Shown here piece after piece: positions 1,747 through 9,898 of a stretch of DNA of 17,627 nt. The number at the start of each line of letters is the position of its first letter. Within the stretch, counting starts at the first letter, position 1. Source of the DNA: Bacillota bacterium (GTDB taxonomy: Bacteria; Bacillota_E; JAJZYS01; JAJYTV01); assembly GCA_021845645.1 (NCBI GenBank), contig JAJZVM010000080.1, forward strand, positions 1 through 17,627, read 5' to 3'. The notes below the pieces were generated by a model. It saw only the letters and a list, made by a program, of their open reading frames with translations. It searched no databases and was not told where the DNA came from. Position numbers and translations under genes: made by a program.

Positions 1747-2796
1747 CTACTGGTAGATGATCACGAGTGGAGGTGGATCGAGTCCCAGCACCATCGAGGG
1801 TGTCGCGACCGGATGGTCCTGCGTGTAGAAGAGCTTGATGCCGCCCGCGACGACGAAGTGGCTCTGCAGACGGTTCGCGTAGAATCCGTTAAGCAGTCCA
1901 TGGACGCCGAACGGCTGCCGGATCGGGATGACGTAGGGGATCTCTTCCTGGTGGATGAACCGCTCGTACTCCGACGACTTGAGCGGCCAGCCGCCGAAGC
2001 CGTCGAGGTCCCGCACCAGGACGACGTTGGGCTGCTCCGCGATCTGCTGCCAGTCCGGGACCATGCTTTCGATGAACTGGTGCAGGATCAGGATCTTCTG
2101 CGGCAGGTGGTAGCGCACCGTCAGGGACTGCAGGTACTGAAGGGCCCAGTTGATCGGCGGCGTCGGCATCGAACCGAACTCGACGCCGGGAATGTCCCCG
2201 GGCAGCATGGCGAACTCGGGATCGAGCGCCAGTTCGACGTCCGGCTGGCGCAGGAACGGCGCGAGGTATTTCACTTCGGTCTGCACCGTGGCGTGACCGA
2301 TCTGCACATCGAGAATCAGCAGCAGGTGGTGGCTGCGCGCGAGGTCGAGCTCGCTCTGGATCAGGGAGTACGGCATCTGGGCGCTGTAATAGCCGTTCGG
2401 GCCCGGGCTGCGTTGGGCGACAACGGCGACGAGCTCGAGCGCGCCGATCACAGGACGCGCGGGCGCCACCTGCCGGAAGGCCTGCTCCTGGGCCGCCAGG
2501 CGCTGCAGCATCGCCTGCGGCGTCCCCTGTCCCAGGACGCCCATCGTCGCCGACAGCGGGTTGCCGTAGTAGGAGATGATCCTGTACTTGGGCAGGAGGG
2601 TCGGGCCGAACCAGTCGAGGTTCGGCGCCGCTTGTGCTCTGGCTTGGCTCGGGCCGATGATTAGCCCGGCCGTTGCGAGCCCTGCCATGGCCAGCACGGC
2701 GAGAACGAGGCCGAGTCGATGACGCCACCGCGGGCTACGCCTTCGTGTTTGCACGAGGTTAGCATAACATGGCGACCGGTGTCGCACCGGTGGCAT
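1747..2796 (-). CDS. Secreted protein of unknown function, predicted barrel-like fold
   Basis: The product has 349 aa. A basic N-terminus with RRRSPRWRHR (18-27) leads into a hydrophobic segment (28-47) and an ARA-QA signal peptidase site after residue 54, so it is probably exported. The mature part alternates short hydrophobic strands with helices: YRIISYYGNP (71-80), IGALELVAVVA (117-127), HLLLILDVQIG (157-167), ELALDPEF (188-195), KILILHQF (234-241), NVVLVRDLDGFGG (257-269), and KLFYTQD (321-327) before a C-terminal VIIYQ. Strand-end acidic residues (D163, D192, E194, D263, D265) plus H239 look like a TIM-barrel active site, possibly glycosidase-like. I recall similar uncharacterised proteins in high-GC bacteria but know no named function. 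The ATG at 2796 abuts AGGAA; the GTG at 2787 is better spaced (9 nt) and may be the true start. An amt-linked role is not established. Confidence 0.82.
   Translation of the reverse strand: MPPVRHRSPCYANLVQTRRRSPRWRHRLGLVLAVLAMAGLATAGLIIGPSQARAQAAPNLDWFGPTLLPKYRIISYYGNPLSATMGVLGQGTPQAMLQRLAAQEQAFRQVAPARPVIGALELVAVVAQRSPGPNGYYSAQMPYSLIQSELDLARSHHLLLILDVQIGHATVQTEVKYLAPFLRQPDVELALDPEFAMLPGDIPGVEFGSMPTPPINWALQYLQSLTVRYHLPQKILILHQFIESMVPDWQQIAEQPNVVLVRDLDGFGGWPLKSSEYERFIHQEEIPYVIPIRQPFGVHGLLNGFYANRLQSHFVVAGGIKLFYTQDHPVATPSMVLGLDPPPLVIIYQ
2775..2791. repeat. Perfect inverted repeat across the start of the secreted-protein gene
   Basis: ACCGGTG-TCG-CACCGGT is a 7-bp perfect repeat with a 3-nt loop. 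It overlaps a second, mutually exclusive repeat, GCGAC-CGGT-GTCGC (2772-2785). Both fall in the first codons after the ATG at 2796, or across the GTG at 2787 if that is the start. A role in translation control or repressor binding is only a guess. Confidence 0.35.
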
Positions 2797-2816
2797 TTCC
2801 TGCGTTAATTGGGCGT

Positions 2817-2844
2817 GCGGCACCCGCCACAAAGCGGGTGCCGC
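2817..2844. terminator. Hairpin after amt
   Basis: A perfect 11-bp repeat, GCGGCACCCGC / GCGGGTGCCGC, has a 6-nt loop and lies 17 nt beyond the amt stop. The minus strand continues ACGCCCAATTAACG, so there is no U-tract. It probably limits read-through from amt or protects the transcript end, about 20 nt before the next gene's start. Confidence 0.5.
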
Positions 2845-2861
2845 GCCGTGGGTACCGTGGT

Positions 2862-4079
2862 CTAGTCGGCGTAGGCCGCCTCTCCGTGCAGGGCCTCGTC
2901 CAGGCCCCCGACCTCCACATCGCGCGAGACGCGCAACGTGCCCGCGAGGTCCAGTACCTTGAGAATGCCAAAGGTCACTGCGAAGGCGTACGCGCTCGTC
3001 ACGACGACCGCGACCACCTGCATCAGAAATTGGTGCAGATCGCCTTGGACGATTCCCTTGACGCCATTCACCGACGCCACAGCGAAGACGCCAAGCAGCA
3101 AGGAGCCCAAGACGCCACCGACCCCATGGCAGCCCCACACGTCGAGTGCGTCGTCCACGTTCTTCCACGTCATGCGCAGCCGCATGGCGCCGAACGGCAC
3201 GAGGCCGGCGAGCAGCCCTATGGCTGCGGCGGACCAGGGCTGCACGTAGCCGGCGGCGGGCGTGATGGTCGCGAGACCGGCCACCGCACCTATGAGAGCT
3301 CCTGAGATGGTCGGTTTGCGATCGACGAGCCACTGCACTGCGAGCCATGCGACCATCGCGACCGATGCAGCGACATCGGTGTTGACGAACGCCGTGGCGG
3401 CAACGCCATTGGCCGCCAAGGCGCTGCCGGCGTTGAAACCGAACCATCCGAACCAGAGGAGACCCGTGCCGAGCGCCACGAACGGCAAGTTGTGCGGCGT
3501 GCTCGATGTGCCCTTGGGCAAGAAGCGGCTGCCTACCACAAATACCGACGCGAGCGCGCCGAAACCTGCGCTGGCGTGCACGACCATGCCACCCGCGAAG
3601 TCCACGGCGCCCATCTGCGCCAGGAAGCCGCCACCCCAGAGCCAGTGGGCGATCGGAATGTAGACGAGCACGCTCCAGAGCACCAGGAACCAGAGATAGC
3701 CGGAAAACTTGACGCGATCGGCGAAGGCGCCGGTGACGAGTGCCGGGGTGATGATGGCGAACATCAACTGGAACGCGAAAAACACCAGGAACGGGATGGT
3801 GGCGCCGTGGGCCGGGTTTGGTGCCATGCCGACACCCTGCAGGCCGAAGTACCTGAGGTTGCCGATGATACCATGCCAGTCTGGTCCAAACGCCAGACTG
3901 AAGCCGCCCAGAACCCAAATGGTGGCCACAACCCCCATGGCGATGAAGATCTGCATCATGATGGTCAGTACGTTCTGCCGCCGCACAAGTCCACCGTAGA
4001 AGAAGGCGAGACCAGGTGTCATCAGCAGAACCAGGGCCGCGCTGATCAGGACGAATGCGGTGTCGCCCGTGTTGATCAC
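2862..4079 (-). CDS. amt: Ammonium transporter, Amt/MEP/Rh family
   Basis: An inner-membrane ammonium channel of 405 aa with about 11 membrane segments. The key pore residues fall at the same numbers used for mature E. coli AmtB: F107 and F215 (phenylalanine gate), W148 and S219 (recruitment site), D160, and the twin histidines H168 (VVHASAG) and H318 (WGCHGVGG). All are intact, so it should conduct ammonium. The start is a GTG; the preceding in-frame codons include a TGA, and GAGAGG lies 10 nt upstream. No glnK (PII) gene is adjacent, unlike most amtB loci. Instead it directly follows the response regulator of an Amt-fused kinase, which suggests transcription under that two-component system. 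The cytoplasmic tail after about residue 378 is short. Confidence 0.96.
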   Translation of the reverse strand: MINTGDTAFVLISAALVLLMTPGLAFFYGGLVRRQNVLTIMMQIFIAMGVVATIWVLGGFSLAFGPDWHGIIGNLRYFGLQGVGMAPNPAHGATIPFLVFFAFQLMFAIITPALVTGAFADRVKFSGYLWFLVLWSVLVYIPIAHWLWGGGFLAQMGAVDFAGGMVVHASAGFGALASVFVVGSRFLPKGTSSTPHNLPFVALGTGLLWFGWFGFNAGSALAANGVAATAFVNTDVAASVAMVAWLAVQWLVDRKPTISGALIGAVAGLATITPAAGYVQPWSAAAIGLLAGLVPFGAMRLRMTWKNVDDALDVWGCHGVGGVLGSLLLGVFAVASVNGVKGIVQGDLHQFLMQVVAVVVTSAYAFAVTFGILKVLDLAGTLRVSRDVEVGGLDEALHGEAAYAD

Positions 4080-4091
4080 GCGTCATCATCC

Positions 4092-4183
4092 TCTCGCGGA
4101 ATGTAGGCGCAGGACGCCCACTCCACCCTAGGACAGCTCGACGGCGGCACATATACGGGCAACTTCGTATTGTCTCGCGGAAT
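4092..4183 (-). promoter_or_regulatory. amt upstream region with an 11-bp direct repeat
   Basis: The 131-nt gap between the regulator and amt carries two identical copies of ATTCCGCGAGA on the minus strand, at 4173-4183 and 4092-4102, 81 nt apart start to start. A weak -10 (TATATG, 4150-4155) lies between them with no good -35, and the proximal copy runs into the amt ribosome site. A small CCACG-GTAT-CGTGG repeat is at 4184-4197. The copies could be binding sites for the adjacent NarL-type regulator; this is inference. Confidence 0.3.
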
Positions 4184-4210
4184 CCACGGTATCGTGGCCT
4201 TCCTGCGTCC

Positions 4211-4852
4211 CTACGGTTCGATGATGTGGTTGCGCACGGCGTAGAGGACGAGATCGCGCATGCCTCTGAGTCCCAGCTTACGCATGATGTTGGCGCGGTG
4301 GGTCTCCACCGTCTTTAGGCTCAGGCGCAGGAGGTCCGCGATGTCGCGGTTGTTCTGCCCGCTGGCAAGCAGTTCCACGATCTCGCGCTCCCTCGGCGAA
4401 AGGATGTCGCGTTCACGGCCCAGGCTGTAGTTCTCGACAAAGCCGGCGACCACATGACCCGCGATGTCCGGTGAGACGTAGGTGCCACCCGCCCGCACCA
4501 CCCGGATCGCCTGCAGGAGTTCCTCCAGGGCGTTGTCCTTGAGGACGTAGCCTTGCACTCTTTGGCGAAACGCCCTCGCGACGAAGTCTTCTCCCTTGTG
4601 CATCGTCAGGATGATGACATGGACGTCCGGCGCTACCTGCCTAAGGTGAGCAGCTACATCAAGCCCGCTGAGCTGAGGCAGGGAGATGTCGAGAATGGCG
4701 ACATCCGGCTTCAGGCGTTGGACTGCCTCCAGGGCGTCGCTTCCGGTGCCCGCCTCGCCGACCACATCGATGTCGTCTTCCTGCTGAAGCAGGATGAACA
4801 GAGACTGACGCAGGATCTTGTGGTCGTCAGCGATCAGGACCCTGGTCTTCAT
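4211..4852 (-). CDS. NarL/FixJ-family response regulator
   Basis: Cytoplasmic transcription regulator of 213 aa. The receiver domain (1-120) has the acidic pair D9-D10, the phospho-acceptor D55 in VAILDISLPQ, T83 in ILTMHKG and K105 in GYVLKD: a complete phosphorylation site. A LuxR-type helix-turn-helix follows at about 148-208, with LSPREREIVELLASG and KTVETHRANIMRKLGL. The ATG has GGAGGT 5 nt upstream. The gene overlaps the end of the Amt-kinase gene by 26 nt, so the two are translationally linked and the kinase is almost certainly its partner. The next gene downstream is amt, its likeliest target. Separate membership of another regulon cannot be excluded. Confidence 0.95.
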   Translation of the reverse strand: MKTRVLIADDHKILRQSLFILLQQEDDIDVVGEAGTGSDALEAVQRLKPDVAILDISLPQLSGLDVAAHLRQVAPDVHVIILTMHKGEDFVARAFRQRVQGYVLKDNALEELLQAIRVVRAGGTYVSPDIAGHVVAGFVENYSLGRERDILSPREREIVELLASGQNNRDIADLLRLSLKTVETHRANIMRKLGLRGMRDLVLYAVRNHIIEP

Positions 4853-6779
4853 ACGGCACCTCCATCGTCAAGGTCGTTCCTTGACCCACCCGTGTATCAA
4901 TGCGCAGTGTCCCGCCCAGCATCTGGATCCTCTCCTGCATGGATGTGAGGCCAAGCCCGCCGTGCACACGCTGACGCTCAAACCCCTGCCCGTCGTCCGC
5001 CACCTGCAGGACGCAGAGGTCCGGCCGCACGCGGACGAAGGCAACGTCCACGCGTGTCGCCCGGGCATGCTTGAGCACATTCGCCAGCGACTCCTGCAGC
5101 ACGCGGTACAGGTTGAGCGCTGCCGCCTCTTCCCAGCGCGGCATGTCTCCCTGCTTCTGCAGGCTGCAACGGATCCCGCTCGCCTTCTCCACGCCGCCGA
5201 GCAGGGCCCTCGTAGCCGCCTCGAGCCCCTGGCTCCGCAGAACGTCCGGACGCAGGTTCAAAAGAACGCCCCGCATCTCCTCGATCGCCTCGGTTGCGAG
5301 CTGCACGGTCCCGTCGACCTGCGTCGCGAAGCCGCCGTCGGCATTCTGGGCTCGCGCGCGGCCGGCGAGAATGCCCAGCCGCAGCTTGAGTGCGGCCAAG
5401 GACTGCCCGACGCCGTCGTGCAGGTCGCGCGCCAGCCGTACGCGCTCATGTTCCTGGGTTTCCACGAGCAGGCGCGCCTGCCGTTGCAGCAGCTGGTTCT
5501 GCGCCTGGATCCGTCCGGAGAGGTCGCTCGCCAGATGTTCATAGTGGCTGGTGCGCAGGTACTCCTGCCAGGAATAGATGTCGCCGAACTCCACGATGTT
5601 GAGGCCTTTCTCCTCCTCCGCCTCGGTCACCCGCAGGCCTAGCCACCTCTTGATCAGGTAGAACATCAGAAAGCCGAGGCCGAAGGACCATACGAAGTTG
5701 ACCGACACGCCAAGCAGCTGGACGAGAAACTGTACGAGCCGCGACTGCCCGCCCAGGAACTGCGGTGCGGCGAAGAAGGCGAGCAGCAGGGTACCCACGG
5801 CGCCACCGAAGCCGTGGATGGGAACCGCCCCGACCGCATCGTCCAGGCGCCTGCGCTCCAGCCACGCACTGGCCAACACGACCACTGCCCCCGCGATGAG
5901 CCCCACCAGCACCGCCTCAGGCGGCTGGACATAGGCCGAACTGGCGGTGATCGCCACCAGCCCACCGAGCGCGCCGGAAAAGATCGCTTCCATAAAGCTG
6001 TGGTCGCGGAAGAACACGTCGGTGGTGAGGAGAGCCCCCACCACGCCGCCGGCCGCCGCGAAGTTGGTATTGAGCAGGATGAGTCCGACGCGGCTGTCAA
6101 ACTGGAGCAGGCTGCCGCCGTTGAAGCCGAACCAGCTGAACCACAGGATGAACGTGCCGAGGGTGGCGAACGGGACATTGGAACGGCCCAGTTGCCGCGC
6201 CCGCCCTTCGGCGTCCCACCGGTCCTTGCGCGGACCAACGATCACGAGACCCGCGAGCGAGACCCAACCCGCGGTGGCGTGCACGACGGTTGCCCCCGCG
6301 AAATCCAGGTAGCCGAGACTCTTCAGCCAGGCCGACTGGCGCAGGAACATGCCTCCCCAGGCCCAATGACCGAAGAGGGGATAGATGACGCCGGCCATGA
6401 ATACAGCTGCGATCAGCAGAGGCACGAGACGTGTCCGCTCGGACATGCTGCCGGAGACGATGGTGACCGACGTCGCGGCGAACATGAGCTCGAAGAAGGC
6501 GAACACGTAGCCAAAGGAGTTGCGTGCCGTCGTCAGGTGCGTCAGGAAGAAGAAGCCGCCACCGATAAGGCCGAGGTGCGTCGGGCCGAACATGAACGCG
6601 AACCCCAGAAAGCCGAATACCAGCGTCGCGATGATGAACGTCAGCATGTTTTCGATGGCGACGCTGACGACGTTCTTGGCCTGGACAAACCCCACTTCGT
6701 AGCACACGAAGCCCGCCTGCATGAAGAAGACGAAGCAGGCGCTGACGATCACCCAGAGATGGTTGACACTGACGCCCAT
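4827..6779 (-). CDS. Amt-domain ammonium sensor histidine kinase
   Basis: A 650-aa fusion. Residues 5-380 are a complete Amt domain with about 11 membrane segments: F100 and F219 (gate), W141, D159, and the twin histidines H167 (VVHATAG) and H322 (PIHGFGG) are all kept. A linker (381-440) leads to a HisKA_3 dimerisation domain with phospho-acceptor H454 in RLARDLHDGVGQS. The ATPase domain (about 550-645) has N567 in LQESLANVLKHA, DDGQGF (595-600) and GGLGLTSMQER (607-617). The architecture matches the ammonium-sensing kinase Amt5 of Kuenenia stuttgartiensis. It probably sits in the membrane, reads ammonium through the Amt pore and phosphorylates the regulator encoded in the overlapping gene. 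GAGG lies 7 nt before the ATG. It starts 47 nt after the GGDEF-EAL gene, so it may be co-transcribed with it. Confidence 0.95.
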   Translation of the reverse strand: MGVSVNHLWVIVSACFVFFMQAGFVCYEVGFVQAKNVVSVAIENMLTFIIATLVFGFLGFAFMFGPTHLGLIGGGFFFLTHLTTARNSFGYVFAFFELMFAATSVTIVSGSMSERTRLVPLLIAAVFMAGVIYPLFGHWAWGGMFLRQSAWLKSLGYLDFAGATVVHATAGWVSLAGLVIVGPRKDRWDAEGRARQLGRSNVPFATLGTFILWFSWFGFNGGSLLQFDSRVGLILLNTNFAAAGGVVGALLTTDVFFRDHSFMEAIFSGALGGLVAITASSAYVQPPEAVLVGLIAGAVVVLASAWLERRRLDDAVGAVPIHGFGGAVGTLLLAFFAAPQFLGGQSRLVQFLVQLLGVSVNFVWSFGLGFLMFYLIKRWLGLRVTEAEEEKGLNIVEFGDIYSWQEYLRTSHYEHLASDLSGRIQAQNQLLQRQARLLVETQEHERVRLARDLHDGVGQSLAALKLRLGILAGRARAQNADGGFATQVDGTVQLATEAIEEMRGVLLNLRPDVLRSQGLEAATRALLGGVEKASGIRCSLQKQGDMPRWEEAAALNLYRVLQESLANVLKHARATRVDVAFVRVRPDLCVLQVADDGQGFERQRVHGGLGLTSMQERIQMLGGTLRIDTRVGQGTTLTMEVPYEDQGPDR

Positions 6780-6826
6780 ACGGTCGCCTCACATTCGCCC
6801 GCCACGGCGCTGGAGACTTGATGCTG

Positions 6827-9800
6827 TCAGGACTTGAGACGGGCCAGGGCCATGATGAGATCATCCTTCTGCCGCCAGAGCCCGTCCGCGGTCTTCGCCG
6901 CCGCGTTGAGGTCCCCTGCCGCGTGCAGGCGCACCGTCGCCGCCGCCAGCTCATGCGTTCGCTGGTGCTCGCGCTCGACGTCGGCGAGCGCGGGATGCTC
7001 CGCGAAATGGCTGCGGCCGTACGTGTCGAGCCAGTAGCCCAGCCCGCAACACGTGCCCCGCAGGCCTTTGTGCCGCCTGTACGGCTTCAGCCCGCCCTCG
7101 ACCGCGGTCGCGGTGAAGAGCGCCGCCCAGCGCAGGTGCCCGAGCTCCGCGGCCAGGACCTCGAAGGTCTCGGTCGCCGCCTGGATCTCGCTGCCGGCCA
7201 CGAGAGGCGCACGCCCAGCGAACTCGCTGCAGAAGGCGTCGATCGCGTCCCGAGGCATCGGTCGCGCGATCGCGTAGCCCTGCGCCAGGTGGCAGCCGAG
7301 ACGCAGGAGCGCCCGCGCCTCAGCCGCCGTCTCGACCCCTTCCGCCAGCACCTCGCGCTCCATGGCGTGGCCCATGATCAGGACACCGTGGATGATGGCG
7401 GGGCTCTCCGGCGTGCGGAGCATGGCCTCGATGAAGCGCTGGTCGATCTTGACCATGTCGCACGGCAGTTCCTGCAGCAAGGTGATCGAGGAGGAACCGG
7501 TGCCGAAGTCGTCCAGCGCGACCCGGACACCGAGGCGGCGGCAGGACTCGATCTGCTGGCGCGCCAGTTCGAAATCATGCACCACCGCGGACTCCGTGAT
7601 CTCGATCGCCACCTGCCGCGGCTGGACGGTCGGGTGACGCACGAGTGCCTCCTCGAGCTCTTGGGCGAAGGTCGGGGCCAGGAACTGTCGGGCAGACGCG
7701 TTGAACGCCATCTGCAGGCCGGGGTACGCCCTGCCGAAGGCCTCCGCCTGCGCCACCGCCTCCCGCAGGACGAACCGTCCGATCTCGATCTCGAGCGCGG
7801 TGCCGTCGACGGCCGGCAGGAACTCGCCGGGCATGCGCAGGCCGCGCGTCGGGTCGCGCCAGCGCACGAGAGCCTCGACCCCCACGATCACCTGGCGGAC
7901 GAGGTCCACCTGCGGCTGATAGTGGAGTTCGAGCTCCCCGCGCTCCAGGGCCTGTTGGATGCCCTCCCTGAGGTCGCCGCGCCTCGCCACCAGATCCTCC
8001 ATGTCGGGCGAGAAGAAGCGGAAGGGGACGTCCGTGACCCTCTTCGCGGCATACATCGCGATGTCGGCGCGCCGCAGAAGCGTCTCGGCGTCCTCGCCAT
8101 CCTCGGGGTAGACGGCCACGCCGATGCTGCCGCGCAGGGTGAAGGTTCTGCCGGAGACCTGCGTCGGCTCTTCTACCGCCGCGATCACGCGGCCCAGGAC
8201 ATGCTGTAGCTCCTCCCGCTCCGCGAGCGTATCGACGAGCAGGATGAACTCATCCCCACCTGAGCGCGCGATGGTGTCCTCCGCCCGCACCACCCGCTGA
8301 AGGCGATGGGCCATGCGCTGCAGGAGCCTGTCGCCGAAACCGTGGCCCAGGGTGTCGTTGACCTGTTTGAACTCGTCGAGGTCGACCATGGCGAGCGCGA
8401 AGCGATGGCCATGCCGTTTCGCGTGGTTCAGGGCGTGTGCGATCCGCTCGTCCAGAAGGCGCCTGTTCGGCAGCCCTGTCAAGGCGTCGTGGTTCGCGAG
8501 ATGGGCGATGCGCTCGCTCTGCCGCCGCCGCTCCGTCACGTCGCGATGCGACGACAGGATGTAGGCGACGCGGCCCTGGCCATCGCGCAGCGGCACCGCG
8601 GACCAGTCCATGAGGAACTCGGAGCCGTCCTTGCGATACTGGTAGACCTCTCCCGACCACGAACGGCCGCCCAGCACGACGTCGTGCATGGCGGCGATGG
8701 CCTCGCGATCGGTCCTTGGGCCCCAGAGCATCTCCGACGATCGGCCGACGATCTCGTCCACCCGGTAGCCCGTCATCTCCTCGAACGCGGGGTTCGCGTA
8801 CACGAACCGCACGCCGCCGTCGGGCAGCACCTTGGCCACCACAAGACATTCCTTGGCCTGCTCGACGATCTCATGGTGCAGGGAGAGCTGCTCCTCCGCC
8901 TCGATGCGACGTCGCCTGTCCTCGATCACCTCGAGCCCGAAGCCCAGGTCCTGCGCCATCTCGGTCAGGACCGCCCGCACGGACGGATCCTCGAACTCCC
9001 CGATGCCCTCGGCGTAGAGAACGAGCACGGCCTGGAGGGTGCCGCCTGCGACGGGCACCGCCGCCACCGCATGCACGCCGACCCGCACGGCCAACTCGCG
9101 CCAAGCCTCGAGGTCCGGCGCCGCCCAGAGGTCCGCCACCGTGCACAGTCTGCCCTCGCGCAAGGCGCGCGCGGCGGGGCCGGTACCACGAGGATCGCCC
9201 GGGTCGAGACGCACGTCCAGTTCCCAAAGCGCCTTGCGATCAGGGCCGGACCACGCGATCGGACGCACGCCGCCCGCGTCGTCCCTTTCGCCCACCCATG
9301 CGAAGCGAAAGTCGCCATACTCGATCGCGATGTCGCACACCTGATGCATCAGGCTGGATGGGTCCTCCGCGCGCATGACCGCCTGCCCGAGCTGCGCCAG
9401 CGAACGCCAGAGGCGCGCCTGCCGCCGAGCGGCCAGGCCCTCGTGACGCAGCCTGTCCTGCTCCTCCCGACGGGCGCTGGCGAGACCTACCTGCTGGGCG
9501 AAGAGGCGCGCGAACTCCTCGTCCTCTGGGTCGGGTTCTCTGCGGGCCGCATACCCGACGCAAACCACGCCTACCCGCTCACCTGACCTGAAGCCGACGC
9601 GCAGCAAGGTGCCGGGCAGTTGCCTTGGCCCGGACGCTTCGGGATGCAGCCATAGGGCCTCGCCGGGCGGCGGCTGATCGTGCCGGCCGCTCTCCCAACC
9701 GCACAGGTCGAAACCGCCTTGCGCCACGACGCTGTTCAGCACGCCCTCGTCCGCTTCGAGCAGAATGGCCAGGCTGTCGGCCTCGAGCAGCCGCCGCCCG

Positions 9801-9898
9801 ATCCTGGCCACGTTCGCAAAGACCTCATCGTAATGGAGCCCTGGGTGCATCGCCTGCAGTTCCTGCCGCAGGCGGTTCAGTCGCGTATCGATGGACAA
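6827..9898 (-). CDS. GAF-GAF-PAS-GGDEF-EAL-CZB cyclic-di-GMP turnover protein
   Basis: A 1023-aa soluble signalling enzyme. Regions in order: GAF-like (20-145), GAF-like (165-325), PAS (345-460, with YANPAFEEMTGY and HRDVTERRR), GGDEF (465-630), EAL (640-890) and CZB (910-1020). The cyclase site GGDEF (547-551) is intact, as is the inhibitory RxxD I-site (R538, D541). The phosphodiesterase site also looks complete: EALVR (675-679), N733, E766, DDFG (796-799), K817, AEGVET (852-857) and QGY (873-875). H921, C951, H978 and H982 have the spacing of the CZB zinc ligands. It could therefore make or degrade c-di-GMP, with GAF, PAS and zinc inputs. The TTG start at 9898 is the best available; AGGGG lies about 11 nt upstream. 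No membrane segment is seen. It lies directly upstream of the Amt-kinase gene. Confidence 0.93.
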   Translation of the reverse strand: MSIDTRLNRLRQELQAMHPGLHYDEVFANVARIGRRLLEADSLAILLEADEGVLNSVVAQGGFDLCGWESGRHDQPPPGEALWLHPEASGPRQLPGTLLRVGFRSGERVGVVCVGYAARREPDPEDEEFARLFAQQVGLASARREEQDRLRHEGLAARRQARLWRSLAQLGQAVMRAEDPSSLMHQVCDIAIEYGDFRFAWVGERDDAGGVRPIAWSGPDRKALWELDVRLDPGDPRGTGPAARALREGRLCTVADLWAAPDLEAWRELAVRVGVHAVAAVPVAGGTLQAVLVLYAEGIGEFEDPSVRAVLTEMAQDLGFGLEVIEDRRRRIEAEEQLSLHHEIVEQAKECLVVAKVLPDGGVRFVYANPAFEEMTGYRVDEIVGRSSEMLWGPRTDREAIAAMHDVVLGGRSWSGEVYQYRKDGSEFLMDWSAVPLRDGQGRVAYILSSHRDVTERRRQSERIAHLANHDALTGLPNRRLLDERIAHALNHAKRHGHRFALAMVDLDEFKQVNDTLGHGFGDRLLQRMAHRLQRVVRAEDTIARSGGDEFILLVDTLAEREELQHVLGRVIAAVEEPTQVSGRTFTLRGSIGVAVYPEDGEDAETLLRRADIAMYAAKRVTDVPFRFFSPDMEDLVARRGDLREGIQQALERGELELHYQPQVDLVRQVIVGVEALVRWRDPTRGLRMPGEFLPAVDGTALEIEIGRFVLREAVAQAEAFGRAYPGLQMAFNASARQFLAPTFAQELEEALVRHPTVQPRQVAIEITESAVVHDFELARQQIESCRRLGVRVALDDFGTGSSSITLLQELPCDMVKIDQRFIEAMLRTPESPAIIHGVLIMGHAMEREVLAEGVETAAEARALLRLGCHLAQGYAIARPMPRDAIDAFCSEFAGRAPLVAGSEIQAATETFEVLAAELGHLRWAALFTATAVEGGLKPYRRHKGLRGTCCGLGYWLDTYGRSHFAEHPALADVEREHQRTHELAAATVRLHAAGDLNAAAKTADGLWRQKDDLIMALARLKS

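Follow-up and report, generated by a model that had tools for sequence, protein, structure and literature searches.

A recurrent kinase-regulator-amt unit with an Amt-derived sensor kinase and a putative control site

Genes and features of the locus

A triad of kinase, regulator, and amt genes was found in the open reading frame list on the minus strand of the window, the whole stretch of DNA analyzed (17.6 kb; 17,627 nucleotides). The features are as follows.

2862..4079, minus strand: amt, canonical ammonium transporter of 405 amino acids, GTG start, conserved C-terminal tail (open reading frame and Pfam)
4125..4130, minus strand: -10-like box TAGGGT, 21 bp downstream of the palindrome
4152..4171, minus strand: putative regulator site AATACGA-agttgc-CCGTATA, the palindrome (10 of 14 matches to AATACAG-N6-CTGTATT)
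4187..4193, minus strand: putative half-site GATACCG, 22 bp upstream of the palindrome (half-site peak at -22 over 22 loci)
4211..4852, minus strand: NarL/LuxR-type response regulator of 213 amino acids (open reading frame and Pfam)
4827..6779, minus strand: Amt-HisKA_3-HATPase_c ammonium sensor kinase of 650 amino acids (open reading frame and Pfam; top solved relative Ks-Amt5, 6eu6)
4848..5117, minus strand: HATPase_c domain of the kinase (PF02518, residues 555-644)
5238..5447, minus strand: HisKA_3 dimerization/phosphoacceptor domain with H454 and D455xxxQ459 (PF07730, residues 445-514)
5580..6758, minus strand: Amt domain of the kinase (PF00909, 342 bits; residues 8-400)
6827..9898, minus strand: GAF-PAS-GGDEF-EAL protein that matches CZB weakly at its C terminus; 47 bp separate it from the kinase downstream

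The preliminary description read the kinase as an Amt fusion with both pore histidines and the kinase residues in place, and the domain search agrees, with Ammonium_transp (342 bits), HisKA_3 (61 bits), and HATPase_c (49 bits) all found and no match to HisKA (PF00512) at an E value of 0.001. The separate Amt matches Ammonium_transp at 381 bits and carries the C-terminal tail GLD..HGE.AY; both Amt parts lie far above the Pfam cutoff of 23.2 bits over their full length. All pore residues are present in the fused Amt (F100, W141, H167, F219, S223, and H322), and the separate Amt has the full AmtB-type set that had been described for it (F107, W148, H168, F215, S219, and H318). The Phe gate, Trp/Ser vestibule, and twin His are identical in 22 of the 22 loci compared (the window and 21 genomes), save for the Ser, which is N in one kinase and G in three amts. 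Kinase residues H454, N567, D595, G597, G599, G608, and G610 are invariant in all 22, as are the phosphoacceptor H and the D and Q of HisKA_3; the DxxxQ motif is a mark of phosphatase function. The regulator combines Response_reg (92 bits) with GerE (68 bits), and its receiver has an acidic pair from residue 9 and Asp 55. Conservation over the 22 loci is 0.91 in its recognition helix and 0.76 in the receiver. The overlap of its start with the kinase end, also reported earlier, amounts to 26 bp in the window and to 8 to 65 bp across loci.

The best solved structural relative of the kinase is Ks-Amt5 (PDB 6eu6; 405 bits), which is sister to the HisKA_3 fusions in the tree (100/96). Of the seven Ks-Amt5 ion-site residues, Q21, E28, N44, and T106 are kept and S109 is a conservative change; D50 and T51 of the Ks-Amt5 ammonium site are replaced by T47 and F48. 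Stand-alone Amts of the sister groups likewise carry Q21/E28/N44/T106, and the Q/E/N residues were therefore rejected as proof of sensing: with D50/T51 replaced and the four kept residues shared with stand-alone Amts, the ion site does not prove that function. What tells the HisKA_3 fusions apart from the sister groups is E43 with T/A47 (versus K43/D47), together with Y27. The predicted structure has a mean pLDDT of 69 and falls below 50 over residues 1-38, for which reason it was left unused for the ion site.

Spread of the triad and its relation to PII

Full-length Amt-HisKA_3 fusions were found in 21 genomes, five of them in the window's class, and the three genes have the same order and strand in all; a further genome, G168, was not counted because its match is confined to the Amt part (residues 3-429 in a 434-amino-acid frame). 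Tabulation of neighbors, as had been proposed, thus showed regulator and amt accompanying the kinase in 22 of 22 loci. Distant relatives carry the kinase-regulator-amt unit too, again with a similar control site. At least one carrier is an isolate with a name, Clostridium aminobutyricum DSM 2634 (L006). No relative was found among viral contigs, and no plasmid record covered 80% of the fusion.

Genes around the triad vary between lineages. The GGDEF-EAL gene lies upstream in five of five same-class relatives (the copy in G422 is cut by the contig end) and is absent from the other 16 loci, two of which show weak GGDEF-type matches; its CZB match (21.6 bits) is under the 29.4 cutoff. Since it is kept only in same-class relatives, it was rejected as a member of the unit and is regarded as an optional neighbor. 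In G192, nifH and two PII genes are found downstream of the triad; this is the one genome with PII within 3 kb of the module amt.

All 22 module amts fall into one clade with one other copy (99/98), apart from the PII-linked amts of the same genomes. Pairwise distances of the three genes correlate at 0.84 to 0.96, uncorrected for the species tree. The other Amts of the module genomes number 28, not counting a short piece of an Amt gene in G192 (C66:22912); the tree and the promoter control take in 27 of them because the divergent G006 copy (C20, L179) failed the BLAST step.

The preliminary description noted the lack of glnK at the locus and suggested an alternative to PII-based control. The first point holds in the window, where no PII match was found among the 10 Pfam-scanned proteins (the gcv genes lay outside the scan), and none of the 21 module amts has PII within 1 kb, whereas 23 of the 28 further amts in these genomes do. 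PII is present in 14 of the 21 module genomes, mostly adjoining other Amts, and unmatched in 7. Of 72 Amt-bearing genomes in the window's class, 62 lack a PII match and only 5 have the kinase; any PII match occurs in 40 of 154 genomes, reaching at least 80 bits in 6 of those 40. PII was rejected as the controller of the window's amt, as no match was found in the five same-class fusion genomes (genome completeness not stated). The triad thus looks like a PII-independent circuit, and that part of the suggestion stands; we make no claim of PII replacement, because PII is uncommon in the class as a whole and most genomes with the module (14 of 21) have it.

The element between the regulator gene and amt

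The gap between regulator and amt contains a conserved element consisting of a palindrome (approximately AATACAG-N6-CTGTATT), a half-site 22 bp upstream, and a -10-like box 21 bp downstream. The composite element reached the floor P value of 0.001 against shuffles in 20 of 22 gaps, with a consensus picked by eye from the same set. A composite score of 18 of 24 or higher was reached by 17 of 22 module gaps and by none of the 27 other amts (best, 17) or the 22 regions upstream of kinases (best, 16). The L133 and L136 loci each have a spot outside the gap that scores 18, against 17 for the gap itself. With a matrix trained on nine loci of another class, the site in the window's gap ranked first of 35,118 positions, and over both strands 10 of the 13 held-out loci, the window among them, had the gap site in first place; in the other three the matrix site was 2nd, 3rd, and 31st, and L149 (G006) gave a P value of 0.29. 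The matrix is usable as a within-locus rank and not as an absolute score: the gaps of L133 and L136 score -16.7 and -20.2, and several non-module amt regions elsewhere score higher (best, -3.2).

By itself, the palindrome of the window (10 of 14) has a P value of 0.012, and its score is equaled by the best chance matches upstream of kinases, which reach 10 of 14 in 3 of 22 loci; the case for this site rests on the composite and its conservation. No sigma-70-type promoter match was found within positions 2600 to 7000. A terminator-like hairpin was seen by eye within the gap of G003, G004, and G006.

Proposed circuit, alternatives, and known systems

The preliminary description took amt to be the apparent target, and the occurrence of the triad in 22 of 22 loci with a conserved promoter element in the regulator-amt gap supports this. 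The Amt-kinase and its partner regulator probably activate the neighboring amt, and we consider it likely from the sequence comparisons that the three genes form a self-contained two-component circuit responsive to ammonium, with receptor Amt, HisKA_3 kinase, and regulator activating amt. Kinship with Ks-Amt5 and shared blocking residues suggest that the kinase's Amt domain has changed from a channel into a receptor, which would bind NH4+ without carrying it. Binding may then shift the kinase/phosphatase balance of the fused kinase, and phosphate would pass to the NarL-type regulator, as gene overlap and co-inheritance suggest. The phosphorylated regulator would bind the two tandem sites 22 bp apart and activate amt; if the -10-like box is correct, the activating site would be centered at about -43.5 and overlap the -35 region. 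Uptake itself would be done by the separate canonical Amt. Phosphorylation of Ks-Amt5 rises at low and falls at high NH4+; with the same sign, amt would be on at low, nonzero ammonium and off at high.

One alternative is that the genes are co-inherited for function but that the regulator has its main targets elsewhere (nitrogen fixation, c-di-GMP, assimilation), amt being one of several or merely co-located. The neighborhood of G192 and the GGDEF-EAL gene directly upstream in the window's class would fit this. The location of the element in the regulator-amt gap argues against it, as does a strict composite search in 18 of the 21 genomes (G003, G004, and G006 left out), in which G001, G422, and G426 each have a single occurrence, free of mismatches and preceding amt. 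The remaining 12 matches in the 18 genomes carry two mismatches, against 11 for the reversed control; the two-mismatch matches in G014, G015, and G031 are the amt gap on the opposite strand. The strict pattern, which fits CNGTAT right halves and a fixed upstream half, misses G423, G424, and CCTGATT forms and could miss degenerate sites. The loose palindrome (at most two mismatches) is more frequent than its reversed control in G003 (28/15), G004 (38/4), G006 (33/14), G007 (39/16), and G024 (43/25), with a mild excess in G005 and G101, but is as rare as the control in the window's class (0-2 versus 0-3). A large regulon was rejected as a reading of these counts, which point both ways among genomes, and main targets elsewhere appear unlikely.

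We likewise give a low probability to a transceptor, in which the fused Amt still transports and the kinase senses flux or a cytoplasmic signal. Every pore residue of the fused Amt is intact. A response of this kind has been argued for the SLC5/STAC kinase CbrA, whose SLC5 domain is reported to be dispensable for perceiving the signal (available text of PMC9100948). However, F24 (22/22 loci), Y27 (21/22), and F31 (21/22) correspond to the bulky F27/Y30/F34 said to close the pore of Ks-Amt5, which binds NH4+ without efficient translocation (PMC5764959, in the part available), and a separate Amt with a full pore motif adjoins in all 22 loci. That the gap element, rather than being a regulator site, belongs to amt as a promoter, an attenuator, or another RNA feature is improbable, for despite the hairpins and a first sighting by eye it pairs a palindrome with a tandem half-site two helical turns away at a fixed distance from the -10-like box across classes, a strength not matched around the 27 non-module amts.

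The resemblance to Ks-Amt5 of "Candidatus Kuenenia stuttgartiensis" named in the preliminary description holds for the N-terminal Amt receptor fused to a histidine kinase, the complete pore motif, the equally long loop 5 in the alignment, and the absence of glnK nearby; it does not extend to the kinase, which is HisKA_3 here and of the HisKA family there (PMC5764959, in part). The triad includes a regulator gene and an adjoining amt; the available description of Ks-Amt5 mentions no paired amt, and its regulator was called unidentified in 2018 (PMC5764959) and again in January 2026 (PMC12918730), in the parts of both papers at hand. Ks-Amt5 showed that an Amt can act as a receptor (PMC5764959, available portion); here the sensor comes with regulator, target, and candidate operator, and with a named isolate as carrier the whole path from NH4+ to promoter is open to testing. 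Among the papers listed by literature searches, Ks-Amt5 was the only characterized Amt-kinase. Tremblay and Hallenbeck reportedly noted Amt fusions in 2009. If the proposed circuit is correct, transport and sensing of one fold are divided between two genes, and the question arises of how a receptor that forms trimers can drive a kinase of a usually dimeric kind. More tentatively, in lineages where PII was not detected (the window-class fusion carriers, G005, and G101) the triad may be the sole Amt-linked ammonium control, a pore-blocked trimer driving HisKA_3 dimers with a distant homologue of the sensor as its one target, so that receptor-Amt and transporter-Amt would form a closed loop. On that reading, no Amt sensor kinase before this one would have had its regulator, target gene, and operator all identified.

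The separate Amt resembles AmtB of the AmtB-GlnK pair in pore residues and tail, but module amts differ in having no PII close by. In the UhpC/UhpB/UhpA-UhpT system, a transporter-like sensor, a HisKA_3-type kinase, and a NarL-type regulator act on a transporter target; sensor and kinase are separate proteins, and the signal is a sugar phosphate, whereas the triad fuses the two and its proposed signal is ammonium. The UhpB model matches the kinase (127 bits) and the UhpA model the regulator (119 bits), both below cutoffs. RpuS/RpuR-MctP, as far as described in the available text of PMC9100948, also places a transporter-derived (SLC5/STAC) histidine kinase near a transporter gene, which it activates via an imperfect direct repeat that spans -80 to -43 and is conserved beside the gene, but with an unrelated SLC5 fold, STAC and PAS linkers, and a hybrid kinase. 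GrtK/GrtR of Burkholderia glumae, in the accessible part of PMC12918730, shares with the triad a two-component system for ammonia, in that case external.

The kinase-regulator-amt unit

Three genes follow one another on the minus strand of the window, in the order kinase, regulator, amt:

6779 to 4827, minus strand: Amt-kinase, 650 amino acids, with Ammonium_transp, HisKA_3, and HATPase_c domains
4852 to 4211, minus strand: regulator, 213 amino acids, with Response_reg and GerE domains
4079 to 2862, minus strand: amt, 405 amino acids, with Ammonium_transp along its full length

The kinase and regulator genes overlap by 26 bp, and 131 bp separate the regulator gene from amt. The preliminary description of an Amt-histidine kinase fusion with intact pore residues and kinase boxes, an overlapping regulator, and a separate amt is borne out by the domain matches and by the residues, all of which are intact. 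The best solved structure for the fused Amt was Ks-Amt5, the Amt-histidine kinase of Candidatus Kuenenia stuttgartiensis, at 405 bits against 165 bits for Af-Amt1. The separate Amt was closest to two structure entries that we take to be Af-Amt1 and AmtB. The fused Amt would bind ammonium and the kinase would pass phosphate to the regulator, which would in turn bind DNA and act as an activator; the sign of the ammonium response is assumed by analogy with Ks-Amt5. Amt-kinase fusions are already known, Ks-Amt5 among them, and Amt fusions were reportedly noted by Tremblay and Hallenbeck in 2009. A search of open-licence PMC papers found no HisKA_3-form Amt fusion with its own regulator, a paired amt, and an operator.

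When Amt-HisKA_3 fusions were searched for and their neighbors tabulated, as had been proposed, the order kinase-regulator-amt on one strand was found in 22 of 22 loci (DNA read in 21 genomes and the window). A contig scan covering the best 80 loci of 565 stretches encoding a relative gave at least seven full-length fusions, and four genome searches of overlapping sets gave fusions in 9/82, 7/299 (one an Amt-only match), 5/154, and 1/391 genomes. Combined, they yielded a full-length Amt-HisKA_3 protein in 21 genomes, each of which encodes another Amt some 2 kb beyond it. PF00909, PF07730, and PF02518 were present together in all 120 protein matches listed, the best 120 of 6031 and including the window's own; the named organisms among these 120 were mainly Bacillota. 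The nearest fusions are those of G423 and G424 (94% identity) and of a "Bacillota bacterium" metagenome-assembled genome (L001, 86%), which makes an uncultured Bacillota the probable source of the window. Nine module genomes belong to the class of G002, Peptococcaceae bacterium CEB3. By eye, the genes flanking the unit differ between lineages.

Directly upstream of the kinase, at 6827 to 9898, lies a gene for a GAF-PAS-GGDEF-EAL protein that also matches CZB weakly and is found in 5/5 same-class relatives; a link to c-di-GMP is possible. Just downstream of amt, 1747 to 2754 encodes a protein without a Pfam or NCBIfam match and with 84 to 93% identity in five same-class relatives.

A conserved element upstream of amt

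The gap between regulator and amt contains a palindrome, AATACAG-N6-CTGTATT, first noticed by eye, as part of a composite element:

4193 to 4187, minus strand: putative upstream half-site
4171 to 4152, minus strand: putative regulator palindrome
4130 to 4125, minus strand: -10-like box, TAGGGT
4079, minus strand: amt start, GTG

Over the 14 scored positions, the palindrome has at least 10 matches in 19/22 gaps and at least 12 in 8/22; that of the window has 10 (p 0.012). A second half-site peaks 22 bp upstream (mean of 4.95 of 7, versus 1.36 to 2.77 at the other 38 offsets, in sites aligned beforehand with a few loci placed by hand), and a TAnnnT box begins 21 bp past the palindrome. The composite reached the floor of p 0.001 (1000 shuffles) in 20/22 gaps; L149 gave p 0.019. 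L146 gave p 0.56 because an early start codon had truncated the region scored; its highest-scoring position (19 of 24) starts 5 bp after the regulator. When the two strands of a locus were ranked together, the site in the gap led outright in 18/22 (L146 counted so), shared the lead in L132, came second in L133 and L136, and placed lower in L149.

A 69-column matrix, built without column selection from the nine loci of G002's class, was applied to the remaining 13 loci, six of which are of the window's class and not mutually independent. The gap site came first over both strands in 10 of these 13; in the window it was first of 35,118 positions (p 0.0005). L152 ranked second, L147 third, and L149 31st (p 0.29), and the rest had p values of 0.0005 to 0.015.

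The composite also distinguishes this gap from other sites. A score of at least 18 of 24 was found in 17/22 module gaps, in 0/27 other amts of the module genomes (best 17), and in none of the 22 stretches ahead of the kinase (best 16). By itself the palindrome discriminates less well: it reaches 10 of 14 ahead of the kinase in 3/22 loci and up to 11 near other amts, the two reported 11s sitting just inside coding sequence. Across 18 genomes, zero-mismatch matches to the strict composite occurred solely before amt, in G001, G422, and G426, and there were 12 further two-mismatch matches versus 11 for the reversed control. Pattern searches of the genomes gave no sign of a large regulon in the window's class. 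The loose palindrome equaled its reversed control in most of the 21 genomes and exceeded it in G003, G004, G006, G007, and G024, so these five may have a broader range of sites.

No sigma-70-type promoter was matched in window positions 2600 to 7000, consistent with an activator-dependent promoter. If TAGGGT is the -10 box, the palindrome would be centered at about -43.5. This geometry resembles the RpuR site at mctP, a direct repeat from -80 to -43, in a system described in PMC9100948 as a transporter-derived kinase system activating the adjoining transporter. In L146, L147, and L149 (genomes G003, G004, and G006), a terminator-like hairpin and T-run, seen by eye, overlap the element region; attenuation is possible.

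PII in genomes that carry the unit

The unit had been proposed as an alternative to ammonium control by PII, the GlnK-type protein (PF00543). A PF00543 match was found in 14/21 module genomes; the profile search, completeness of the genomes not being stated, detected none in G001, G422, G423, G424, and G426 (the window's class), G005, and G101, and the sole Amts found in these seven are the unit's two. The same search recovered four to nine PII genes per genome in all nine genomes of G002's class and was positive in 13/14 controls. Of the other Amts, 23/28 have PII no more than 1 kb away or in the same frame, versus 0/21 module amts (Fisher p 3e-9); with PII-bearing genomes alone counted, the figures by this criterion are 23/28 for other Amts and 0/14 for module amts (p 2e-7). 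Within 3 kb, one module amt of 21 has PII, that of G192, whose unit (L152, 7191 to 12984, with the PII pair beyond) precedes nifH and two PII genes, which suggests a tie to nitrogen fixation.

The proposal thus holds insofar as PII is within 1 kb of none of the module amts, but the window's class speaks against a replacement of PII: of its 154 genomes, 72 have an Amt, only 10 of these 72 have any PII match, and just 5 have the kinase. In three genomes that also have the unit (G003, G007, and G004), Amt and PII share a single open frame of about 600 amino acids (L169, L171, and L178), apparently encoding Amt-PII fusion proteins.

Descent and sensor residues of the fused Amt

One tree was built from 22 module amts, 27 other Amts, and 10 kinase Amt domains. 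All module amts share a clade (99/98) in it with a single extra copy from G031, and the remaining 26 of the other Amts fall outside. That copy (L174) has no PII within 1 kb and no strong element (composite, 14 of 24). In a second tree (92 rows, sampled by two peptide patterns and flagged for long branches), every fused Amt sampled falls in a single clade (100/98): 11 HisKA_3 fusions, Ks-Amt5, the 8qj3 chain, and 10 others. Within this clade, the HisKA_3 fusions have Ks-Amt5 as their sister (100/96). The outputs of the ten others are MCP-signal (six), Hpt-HATPase_c, SpoIIE, GGDEF-EAL, or none recognized, which suggests a single receptor lineage coupled to several outputs. Six proteins with chemoreceptor signaling domains (L013, L017, L021, L009, L012, and L041, from Bacillaceae, Vibrio, Neiella, and Spirochaetaceae genomes) are, from their place in the clade of Ks-Amt5, probable ammonium chemoreceptors. 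L026, L011, L046, and L054 carry, respectively, Hpt and HATPase_c (CheA-like), a SpoIIE-type domain, an unrecognized C-terminal part, and PAS-GGDEF-EAL.

The window's fused Amt was aligned with Ks-Amt5, with residue roles as given in PMC5764959. Q24, E31, N47, and T109 of Ks-Amt5 are kept as Q21, E28, N44, and T106, whereas T112 is replaced by S109 and D50 and T51 by T47 and F48. Across the 22 loci, E28, N44, and E43 are invariant, and position 47 is T in 19 and A in 3. Outside the HisKA_3 clade, among the relatives compared, Q at position 21 always occurs with K43 and D47, fused or not, and Ks-Amt5 has R and D at the equivalents of 43 and 47; in the HisKA_3 clade, K/R43-D47, four residues apart, is exchanged for E43-T/A47. 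This swap would leave two acids, E28 and E43, near the ion site. Y27, present in 21/22 loci, corresponds to Y30 of Ks-Amt5, which PMC5764959 describes as among those that shut the pore; the relatives compared outside the HisKA_3 clade have V, L, I, or F at position 27.
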